Shown here one piece after another: positions 41,477 to 43,740 of a stretch of DNA of 46,930 nt. The stretch spans positions 1-46,930 of the forward strand of contig JALHRK010000006.1 in the NCBI GenBank assembly GCA_022841505.1, read 5' to 3'. The translations under genes and the position numbers were made by a program. Under the pieces are notes generated by a model, which was not told the DNA's origin, did not search any database, and was given only the letters and a program-made list of their open reading frames with translations. The stretch is from Saprospiraceae bacterium (GTDB taxonomy: Bacteria; Bacteroidota; Bacteroidia; Chitinophagales; Saprospiraceae). Each line of letters begins with the position of its first letter. Within the stretch, counting starts at the first letter, position 1.

Positions 41477-42259
41477 ATGAGCAGAAGCAATCCAGAAACA
41501 ATTTTACAGAACCCGGCAGTGCGGTTTTTCGAGTGGAAAGGCGACACCGGCGAACTGAAATACTACGACCGCGAGAAGGAAGAGAACGTTATCGTGGCTA
41601 CGCCTTTCAGGTTCCTTGTTCTCGATAACGTGGCTCAGGTCGGCGGCGGTATCAAGAAGCATAACGAATACGTCGGGTACTTCTCAAACGCCGTGCGGGT
41701 TCGCAACATCAAGACGCATCCGCTAGTTGTGAAATCCAAGATCAACGGACACGTTAGCGTCGAGGCCGAGGGCGTTTGGGAGCATATCAAGGGCACTCTG
41801 CAAGGGGCGAAGTTCATTCAGGGGCTTTACATCGGATTCTTTGACGGTGACAAGTTGACAATCGGGTATCTGAAACTCAAAGGGGCTGCTAATTCGGCGT
41901 GGATAGATTTTAACAAGACGATCAATCGCCGGGACATCTGTGCCGGGGCGTACACGATCAAAGGACGTTCTGAGGAAAAACAGAACGGCAACACGACATA
42001 TTACGAGCCTGTCTTTAGCTGGACGGAACAGGTCAAGCCCGAAACGGAACAGGCCGCACTCGATCTTGATGTTGAGTTGCAGAAATACCTCACGGCATAT
42101 TTCGCCCAGCAAGCGTTGGTTGAACCATCCGAGCCTGAATATTCGGGTGAGTCGTTCGATGATATCGAGGAGCGTAAGGCAATCGCGGCATCGGCGGGCA
42201 ATGCGTCAACGTGGAAGGCCGCTGAGTTTGTTGACGATAGCGATTCGATACCCTTTTGA
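41477..42259 (+). CDS. ssDNA-binding protein candidate (SSB-like C-terminal tip)
   Basis: This 260-residue protein has a beta-rich N-terminal half (FRFLVLDNVAQVGGGIKKHNEYVGYFSNAVR) and an acidic end, FVDDSDSIPF. That matches the acidic SSB tip (DDDIPF) that recruits recombination proteins. No OB-fold motif can be proven by eye. Its position in the early region, next to HNH and coiled-coil proteins, supports ssDNA binding in recombination or replication. Confidence 0.6.
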   Translation: MSRSNPETILQNPAVRFFEWKGDTGELKYYDREKEENVIVATPFRFLVLDNVAQVGGGIKKHNEYVGYFSNAVRVRNIKTHPLVVKSKINGHVSVEAEGVWEHIKGTLQGAKFIQGLYIGFFDGDKLTIGYLKLKGAANSAWIDFNKTINRRDICAGAYTIKGRSEEKQNGNTTYYEPVFSWTEQVKPETEQAALDLDVELQKYLTAYFAQQALVEPSEPEYSGESFDDIEERKAIAASAGNASTWKAAEFVDDSDSIPF

Positions 42260-42264
42260 AAATT

Positions 42265-42738
42265 ATGAAGAAGTGTTTTAAGTGCGGCGTGATCGCTCCT
42301 CTATCCGAGTTCTATAAACATCCTCAGATGGCAGATGGGCACGTTAATAAATGCAAAGAATGCAACAAGGTGGATATGCGTCTTAGCTACGCAGCCCGTC
42401 CAGTTGAACAACGGAAGGCATATGAGCGATCACGGCTTGATAATCCCAAGCGGATTACAGCTAGAAAGAGGTACTTGGAACGGGTGGGGCCAGAAGTCCA
42501 ACGAGCTTACAAACAAAAATGGGTGAGTCATAACCGACATAAACGCTATGCTCAAAATCTTTTATCTAAGGCAGTGAGGGCCGGAAAGATTCAACGCCAG
42601 CCTTGTGAACGATGCGGGAGTCTAAGGGCACAAGGGCATCACGAGGATTATTCAAAACCGCTTGATGTGATATGGCTTTGCCCAAAACACCACGGAGAGA
42701 GACATCGAGAATTAAGAGATATGGGAGTTCAATTGTAA
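42265..42738 (+). CDS. HNH endonuclease with N-terminal zinc domain
   Basis: The protein has 157 residues from ATG 42265. The N-terminal CFKC...NKCKECN domain (Cys4, 7, 30, 33) and the phrase LPLSEF/PLSEFYKHPQMADGH match the domain of the HNH protein at 16421. The C-terminus has CERCG, HHEDYSKPLDVIWLCPKHHGERHRE, a complete HNH site. It is probably a mobile or restriction-like nuclease. Confidence 0.75.
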   Translation: MKKCFKCGVIAPLSEFYKHPQMADGHVNKCKECNKVDMRLSYAARPVEQRKAYERSRLDNPKRITARKRYLERVGPEVQRAYKQKWVSHNRHKRYAQNLLSKAVRAGKIQRQPCERCGSLRAQGHHEDYSKPLDVIWLCPKHHGERHRELRDMGVQL

Positions 42739-43102: not shown

Positions 43103-43163
43103 TGCGGAAATGTGAACCAACGACAGCTCCGGGCGGTTTCCGCATCTTATTCATCCCGCCCGG
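43103..43163 (+). ncRNA. possible H-type pseudoknot with two 8-bp stems
   Basis: TGCGGAAA (43103-43110) pairs with TTTCCGCA (43137-43144). CCGGGCGG (43129-43136) pairs with CCGCCCGG (43156-43163). The arms interleave in pseudoknot order, and the two stems touch at 43136/43137, allowing coaxial stacking. Loop lengths are 18 and 11 nt. It starts six bases after the upstream gene's stop and heads the array that follows. Confidence 0.6.
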
Positions 43164-43740
43164 ACATTTTGAAAACTTAGTTTGGCGGCTCAATGAGGGC
43201 ATTGGTAGTAAACGGGCTGAGGGGTAATGCATGCGAGAAACCCTGAAACGAAATAGACCTTTGAGCGACCTGATAGCCACCAAAAAACAGAGGCGGTGTC
43301 CAGTGGTAGAACGACTATCGGACGTGCAGGCGAAAGAGTCCGAGCCGCTTCTGACATTTTGAAAAAGTTATGGCGTAGGTGGCGGAATTAGACGCACAAG
43401 ACGGTAATCAAACCATCGGGGCAGACTTTTCAGGGAATCGTGCTAGCCCATTGGACTGGAACGAGCTGCCTTTGCAAGTAACCAATCTTGCCCTACGCCT
43501 TCCAATTCACCACAAGCACCGGGCGGCAGCGTGGTGGAACGGCTTAAAATAGGCCGCCCGGTTATTTGAAAAGTTTATATGGCAGACTCCAGCGACCGCG
43601 AGGCGTTGGCAGGGGGTTTTGTAGCATGTCACCCTGTGCCGTTAAGTCTGCCTTCCAATATCTGCCTAACGGCGGATGACACGGTGAGTTCTTCACACCG
43701 ATTCTCCAATTAGGGCGGTATCGGTATATCGCCCCTTTTT
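43164..43740 (+). ncRNA. tandem array of tRNA-like multi-arm RNA elements
   Basis: No protein frame is credible here. Three near-identical spacers of the form ATTTTGAAAA...TTA (18 nt at 43164, 43354 and 43563) each precede a stem-bounded element beginning GGC. The outer stems are TTGGCGGCT/AGCCACCAA (43182-43190/43275-43283, one mismatch), CAGAGGCGG/CCGCTTCTG (43288-43296/43345-43353), GGCGTAGG/CCTACGCC (43372-43379/43492-43499), ACCGGGCGGC/GCCGCCCGGT (43518-43527/43553-43562) and GGCAGACT/AGTCTGCC (43581-43588/43645-43652). Two end in TTCCA. D-arm- and T-arm-like hairpins are seen, but no standard T-loop. The array ends at a terminator. Confidence 0.5.
43713..43740 (+). terminator. intrinsic terminator ending the RNA array
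   Basis: GGGCGGTAT (43713-43721) pairs with ATATCGCCC (43726-43734) in a 9-bp stem with one G-T pair and a CGGT tetraloop, followed by CTTTTT. It precedes the ribosome site of the gene at 43758. Confidence 0.8.

Follow-up and report, generated by a model that had tools for sequence, protein, structure and literature searches.

A probable phage cluster of small structured RNAs that includes a member of an anticodon-less tRNA-like family

We analysed a stretch of DNA of 46,930 nucleotides (the window) and consider it fairly probable (about 0.6), judging from its sequence, that it carries a phage cluster of small structured RNAs, one of which, at 43372-43499, belongs to a family of anticodon-less tRNA-like RNAs that would have a non-translational role and act on the host. 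By its predicted pairing, this family keeps the frame of a tRNA (acceptor stem, U8-G9, D-arm and T-arm), and a variable insert replaces the anticodon arm. The decisive support for the element at 43372-43499 comes from its relatives, that is, from a family collected with a 17-mer, from the pairing of its stems and from covariation.

The window comprises positions 1-46930 of its contig, which is part of an assembly of 7.5 Mb in 999 contigs. Judging from the protein families found in the window, among them a large terminase subunit, an integrase, a DNA methyltransferase and an endonuclease of HNH type, the source contig is a prophage or phage contig. Relatives of the terminase were found at 74 loci. 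For the genes neighbouring the array, no protein relatives were found in viral contigs; the neighbouring protein P0001 is present in one of 60 related genomes, which is its own, and its family (phrog_6706) in two of 150 genomes, again including its own. At the second phrog_6706 locus, the descriptor found no tRNA-like element, and a DNA search against phage records gave no useful match. On the forward strand, no reading frame of at least 60 aa (ATG, GTG or TTG start) occurs between 43098 and 43757. The longest exact antisense match between the array and the rest of the contig has 12 nt, compared to 11-13 nt in shuffles. We set aside an attachment-site reading of the array on distance alone, the integrase gene being about 8 kb off. 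The start of the HNH-type gene (42254-42267, TTTTGAAAATTATG) resembles the spacers of the array.

All features of the array lie on the forward strand. Repeated spacers had been predicted, and copies 1 (43166-43175) and 2 (43356-43365) both read ATTTTGAAAA, whereas copy 3 (43564-43572) reads ATTTGAAAA and is shorter by one T. Over 24 nt, copies 2 and 3 are 67% and 75% identical to copy 1. The GGC-starting elements described behind the spacers are present in the sequence, and TTCCA is indeed common to two element ends (43500-43504 and 43653-43657). As for the terminator said to close the array, there is a terminator-like hairpin at 43713-43734, followed by CTTTTTC; however, the terminator scan finds one such hairpin compared to a mean of 1.9 in shuffled sequence, and is thus no evidence by itself. 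The segment 43660-43745 folds with a z-score of -3.6 (all fold z-scores are against dinucleotide shuffles), and four of the five window elements have moderate fold support (z of -2.0 to -2.7). Upstream of spacer 1, a hairpin CCGGGCGG...CCGCCCGG is found at 43129-43163, whose stem sequence is that of the mini element at 43518-43562 described below.

The stems that the original prediction assigned to the element starting at 43372, i.e. an acceptor of 8 bp, TG at positions 8-9, a Leu-like D-arm of 3 bp and a T-arm-like hairpin of 5 bp abutting the 3' acceptor strand, are all present. The core of this anticodon-less tRNA-like RNA spans 128 nt (43372-43499) and is backed by its score with the covariance model R1 (see below), by the family tables and by covariation. 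The 5' acceptor strand GCGTAGG (43373-43379) pairs at 7/7 positions with the 3' strand CCTACGC (43492-43498), which is followed by C and then by TTCCA, and G43372-C43499 can add an eighth pair. In the 7-bp frame, T43380 and G43381 correspond to positions 8 and 9 (U8-G9). The D-arm GCG-GAATTAGA-CGC (43382-43395), in full GCGGAAUUAGACGC, lacks the usual GG (G18G19) and lies within the 17-mer of 72 viral stretches. An insert of 78 nt (43396-43473) replaces the anticodon arm; in the fold, it is closed by a helix of 43418-43424 with 43466-43472, with two G-U pairs at the base, and this helix ends 2 nt before the T-arm, a rule of the family described below. The T-arm GCAAG-TAACCAAT-CTTGC (43474-43491) has a loop of 8 nt that is identical in the members L013, L022, L025 and L069. 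The segment 43371-43512 has a fold z of -2.0.

To collect relatives, we used the 17-mer GTGGCGGAATTAGACGC, which extends from acceptor base 7 through the end of the D-arm, in an exact search. It was found in 72 stretches of IMG/VR and in 14 of a collection of bacterial and archaeal genomes. At many of the viral matches, the seven bases that end in the first G of the 17-mer recur downstream as their reverse complement, behind a T-arm-type hairpin of 5 bp. So that pairing would not enter into the choice, the acceptor played no part in how T-arms were defined for the test of this pattern. Among the 59 unique viral loci that remained after dropping 11 duplicates and two edge cases, 38 carry, behind a T-arm, a sequence complementary to their own acceptor at 7/7 positions, and 40 at ≥6/7. 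When acceptors were swapped between loci, this was the case for 47 of 3,334 combinations (1.4%) at 7/7 and for 195 of 3,334 at ≥6/7. The structure was absent from all cellular-genome matches (0/14 raw, 0/13 after dropping one duplicate), which by eye look like ordinary coding sequence or, in L157, like a repeat. Structured matches were thus confined to viral contigs and the phage-like contig of the window; since the genome scan used one exact 17-mer, cellular genomes may hold variants. The 21 of the 59 unique matches without structure include some that are apparently coding and some near-misses, of which L003, L016, L057, L073 and L074 were accepted by R1. With the strict descriptor, we obtained 40 distinct elements, namely the one in the window and 39 viral ones, plus six further duplicates.

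We next consider covariation. The alignment A2 contains 35 of 38 prepared sequences, and eight of the 40 elements, with inserts >112 nt, were left out. Because its elements were chosen for stems that pair, its 100% pairing is by construction, and the own-acceptor test above is the fairer one. Over the 15 core pairs of A2, both-side changes occur at 10 pairs (shuffled mean 7.3) and in 131 cells (shuffled mean 33.5), and compensatory changes are numerous in the acceptor pairs. The number of further pair types is not above that of shuffles (29 compared to 26.4; 72/500 shuffles reach it). By eye, L014 and L069 also differ by a compensatory change in a helix of the insert. A second sample was drawn with the T-arm sequence alone and gave 56 stretches at 43 unique places. 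Six of these are known D-arm matches and seven show the same plan with altered D-arms (L171, L174, L178, L189, L191, L193 and L199, three of them read individually), with compensated D-stems (GTG/CAC or GAG/CTC) in three of the seven; at the other 30 places the plan is absent, and these may be chance matches. A scan for D-stem variants gave 95 stretches, and among the 80 listed 22 were new, none of them (0/22) with the full strict structure. D-stem covariation is therefore limited to few cases (L174, L193 and L199). Conservation and covariation in relatives had been named as what the idea of tRNA-like RNAs depends on, and for 43372-43499 the idea survived this check. We found no description of such a family in the literature searched, which is weak evidence as most subscription journals are outside its coverage.

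Family members share a plan of 7-bp acceptor, U8, G9 (A9 in L189), D-arm, insert, 5-bp T-arm and acceptor strand. The D-loop is GAAUUAGA, without G18G19. Inserts range from 21 to 175 nt (median 78), the three smallest having 21, 21 and 22 nt. T-loops of 8 nt occur in 24 of the 40 elements, those of 7 nt in 11 and those of 6 nt in five; all 8-nt loops start with UA, and UAWYCAAU occurs in 9/40. The final two nucleotides of the insert are AU, GU or UU in 40/40. Furthermore, in 21 of the 36 inserts of at least 40 nt, including that of the window, a closing helix ends exactly 2 nt before the T-arm (mean 2.8 and maximum 5 in shuffles of these inserts). The same 36 inserts, the four shorter ones being left out, were searched for anticodon arms. 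A perfect standard arm within the first 6 insert nucleotides was found in 0/36 (shuffled mean 0.1), a one-mismatch arm in place in 1/36 (L040; shuffled mean 1.6), and counts of anticodon arms anywhere in the insert do not exceed those of shuffles. Position 73 is A in 17, T in 14, G in seven and C in two of the 40 elements; this lack of conservation argues against a shared aminoacylation identity. CCA is encoded in 8/40. Some inserts stood out by eye: those of L047 (2696-2845) and L050 (5120-5270) contain an embedded standard T-arm GTGGGTTCGACTCCCAC and then an acceptor-like hairpin, which gives the impression of reshuffled tRNA parts, and those of L023 (1466-1666) and L025 (4220-4423), with 153 and 156 nt, are alike and may be a distinct insert type.

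Known RNA classes did not account for these elements. None of the elements in the window is a complete tRNA: ARAGORN called no tRNA there, and Rfam 15 gave nothing at the gathering score. At E up to 10, Rfam gave unrelated weak matches in the array region and none to tRNA, and neither program matched a tmRNA in the window. Over 20 loci, Rfam called neighbouring tRNAs and none of the family elements (0/20), with no intron family among its matches. The family has the acceptor stem and T-stem of a tRNA and lacks the anticodon arm (a 5-bp stem with a 7-nt loop with U33, after the D-arm). The element at 43372-43499 shows the combination by which we describe the family, i.e. acceptor, TG, a D-arm of the GCGGAATTAGACGC type, insert, and a 5-bp T-arm with a loop of 6-8 nt.

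The model R1 was applied to 37 chosen sources, to eight more and to part of the window. When 119 related genomes, including the window's own, were scanned with it, 70 gave matches with an E value of 0.001 or less. Among the matches listed, these are mostly 75-88 nt long with up to 39 bits, and those of 75-88 nt are in our reading tRNA-Leu-like genes of the host (one of them, L264, looks like a tRNA-Leu by eye); a few other matches have 51, 125 and 141 nt. The element at 43372-43499, which is itself one of the 35 training sequences, has 69.4 bits, and a 145-nt match in the relative G092 has 46.1 bits; at the latter locus we find a tRNA-like element of 142 nt with canonical loops and no ARAGORN call.

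The other elements of the array are weaker, and no relatives of them were identified. The first (43181-43283) is not supported as a tRNA-like RNA, having a mismatch in its outer stem and a fold z of -0.4. The short tRNA-like element at 43288-43353 has a 9-bp outer stem and a D-arm-like part with GGTAGA, and no anticodon arm or T-loop; the segment 43286-43357 has a fold z of -2.7. Its predicted outer stem is present in the minimum-energy fold, whereas the 6-bp hairpin also proposed for it is absent from that fold. A seed from this element matched no viral stretch, and with 2.9 bits in R1 it is not a member of the family. In L022, a tRNA-like element of 59 nt, whose D-arm and T-arm are 9 nt apart, lies directly 5' of the family element, in the same order as the 66-nt element in the window. 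The mini hairpin element at 43518-43562, absent from the original prediction, has an acceptor-like stem only and a D-arm-like sequence (fold z -2.6 for 43518-43564). It is not a member either (2.4 bits in R1), and its seed gave one viral match, in apparently coding sequence. An element in L247 (2826-2876) recalls it: a D-arm motif inside a strong 51-nt hairpin without a T-arm (z -5.0). The last element (43581-43652) has an 8-bp outer stem, GGCAGACT/AGTCTGCC, before its TTCCA, a fold z of -2.2 (43576-43660) and no match to R1. It is overlapped by an ATG frame of 44 aa (43579-43713), which stops where the terminator-like hairpin begins.

Family members occur in diverse genomic contexts. Within the 113 flanking proteins scanned (140 listed), no family was common to more than two, among the 25 commonest families listed. 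A mechanically called ORF of at least 60 aa overlaps 16 of the 40 elements and leaves 24 free. Another element that has an acceptor, a D-arm and a T-arm was found no more than 600 nt away from 12/40 members, compared to 1/138 control segments elsewhere in the loci and 0/40 on the opposite strand; the window's own neighbouring elements fail this descriptor. Some neighbours are ordinary tRNAs. Others, short or oversized, have no ARAGORN call (59 nt in L022, 78 nt in L038, 109 nt in L046 and 115 nt in L069), though the L022 and L046 ones score as tRNA in Rfam; folds are no better than z -1.9 in L022 and -1.3 in L038. One phage contig (L189, 4051-4729) holds a dense tRNA-like array, with three R1 matches in about 700 nt. 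The T-arm and acceptor end of member L018 (3836-3868) matched 195 Vibrio phage records, over 28-33 nt among the matches listed, with one under an annotated tRNA-Pro; apart from the match that led to phAPEC8 (see below), other family elements queried against named phages gave nothing, or short weak matches.

How can such elements be explained? The original prediction spoke of a cluster of degenerate or specialised tRNA-like RNAs, a wording that has support for 43372-43499, in a covarying phage-borne family, and not for the first element. If these were decaying pseudogenes, i.e. remnants of phage tRNA-Leu genes, deprived of the anticodon arm and of any function, a tRNA-Leu-like D-arm, weak R1 matches to host tRNA-like genes and a window without any complete tRNA would be as observed. 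However, compensatory changes maintain both the acceptor stem and the T-stem in contexts that differ widely, and D-arm and T-arm sequences recur over many contigs while the inserts vary. Together with the common linker and closing helix and the insert-helix compensation between L014 and L069, this is not what we expect from decay, which we consider an improbable source. It is more doubtful still that the elements are intron-bearing pre-tRNAs, which would become functional tRNAs once splicing had removed an intron from the anticodon region. Although the insert sits at the place of the anticodon arm, the smallest inserts could not hold both an intron and such an arm, anticodon-like arms do not exceed their frequency in shuffles, no Rfam intron family was matched in the 20 loci, and the D- and T-loops are non-canonical as well; hence we give this explanation very little weight.

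Membership in a covarying, phage-borne family supports the view that the element at 43372-43499 is specialised rather than merely degenerate, as far as sequence comparison can tell. We propose that the family RNAs may be cut from a longer transcript by host tRNA-maturation enzymes (RNase P and 3' trimming) and stabilised by them. They would be unable to decode and would have a non-translational role, and they might act during infection through the variable insert, through the elbow and acceptor end, or both. Most likely, they would serve as decoys or inhibitors of a host tRNA-handling factor or as sRNAs on a tRNA scaffold; the functions originally suggested for tRNA-like RNAs here (decoys, RNase P substrates or sponges) are possible ones. 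For regulatory RNAs on a scaffold, the tRNA chassis would provide processing and stability, and the insert would pair with or bind a target other than tRNA. The wide variation of inserts between phages on a preserved chassis and the lack of a widely common neighbour gene among the 113 flanking proteins point in this direction, whereas the array has no exact antisense match above shuffles within the rest of the contig and a target site would hardly fit into inserts of 21-22 nt; we regard it as a tentative option. Equally tentative is the idea that the RNAs act as decoys or inhibitors and present their elbow and acceptor end to host enzymes that handle tRNAs or to defences that target them. The conserved chassis sequence with its decoding part lost would fit this, as would the restriction of structured 17-mer matches to viral contigs and the window's prophage-like contig. 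A further hint comes from PMC12685909: when a T4-like phage was adapted to E. coli ECOR34 in three independent experiments, every population acquired one and the same SNP, a convergent change in the rnaD region. This link is indirect, though, and we found that rnaD folds no better than shuffles (z -0.8). Also against the idea, the D- and T-loops of the family lack the standard elbow bases.

More speculatively, several tailed-phage groups might encode an unrecognised class of anticodon-less tRNA-like RNAs, both in tRNA arrays and between genes, with T4 RNA C as an early-seen example. As weapons or shields, such RNAs could be directed at host enzymes that handle tRNAs or at defence enzymes that target them, and what replaces the anticodon arm could be evolving in an arms race; we put this forward as an unlikely but worthwhile idea. 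Annotation programs that seek an anticodon can skip or mislabel RNAs without one. For instance, the rnaC homologue of Enterobacter phage PG7 (L239 454-548; NC_023561.1 75846-75940) is annotated as tRNA-Met. A covarying family in uncultivated viruses and an element of like plan in 85 phage records (see below) provide a comparative basis and new test systems for the question of the small stable RNAs of T4, so that an old puzzle about phage RNAs could become testable through the family.

Lastly, we compare the family to known systems. With tRNA-Leu, it shares the D-arm sequence and the frame of acceptor and T-arm; unlike tRNA-Leu, the window's member has no anticodon arm, no GG in its D-loop and no TTCRA, and its T-loop has 8 nt. 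In tmRNA, the acceptor and T-arm are kept and a helix takes the place of the anticodon arm. The family likewise keeps acceptor and T-arm with the anticodon arm replaced, but its RNAs are smaller, with inserts down to 21 nt that leave no room for a tag frame.

Through a T-arm match of 21 nt, we arrived at coliphage phAPEC8. In its tRNA array, an element (60019-60097) lies between tRNA-Asn and tRNA-Thr at a place with no annotated feature. It folds with a z of -3.0, has a 7-bp acceptor and carries a hairpin with a 4-nt loop instead of the anticodon arm. The stretch occurs in 85 phage records, many of phages of E. coli and 11 of them naming MG1655 as host, and elements of this type were examined in four phages (two Phapecoctavirus and two Justusliebigvirus). 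Its T-arm GCAGG-TATCGAAT-CCTGC is identical to that of family member L006, whereas it has no D-arm of the GCGGAATTAGACGC type, and in R1 it reaches 25-28 bits in the four phages, below the host tRNA-like matches (up to 39). In phAPEC8, a second gap element (L165 3923-3997) likewise carries a 4-nt-loop hairpin where the anticodon arm would be, together with a standard T-arm. By eye, phAPEC8 also has an unannotated tRNA-Ser-like sequence before its annotated tRNA-Ser (L165 2460-2551), with a CGGTCTTGAAAACCG anticodon-type arm and a standard T-arm. In the record of Klebsiella phage ZCKP1, Rfam matched RNAI (L166 2452-2553).

T4 RNA C (rnaC, species 1 RNA; L167 909-1047) is a small phage RNA adjoining tRNA genes, with a T-arm that abuts a 7-nt acceptor-like strand, no anticodon arm and a large insert. 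In two papers, RNAC and RNAD are described as late T4 RNAs, validated by Northern blot and of unknown function (PMC9697503), and their biological roles as unknown (PMC3014915). T4 RNA C differs from the family in its T-loop (UUCGAAU), in two U-U mismatches in the acceptor and in having no D-arm of the family type. It sits among standard tRNA genes, whereas the window has no standard tRNA, and some other family members adjoin tRNAs. We aligned rnaC from six T-even sequences including T4 (L237 was left out) and found that, across its fold of 47 pairs, 11 have changes on both sides and several have broken cells; the compensatory changes affect one acceptor pair (A-U to G-C), one T-stem pair and the insert helices. 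At rnaC in L167, L236, L238 and L239, R1 found nothing at E up to 1. As R1 misses rnaC and gives the phAPEC8 element 25-28 bits, both share the plan of the family and not its consensus. The link to T4 RNA C is thus architectural and not one of homology. Among experimentally detected RNAs of like plan, T4 RNA C comes closest.
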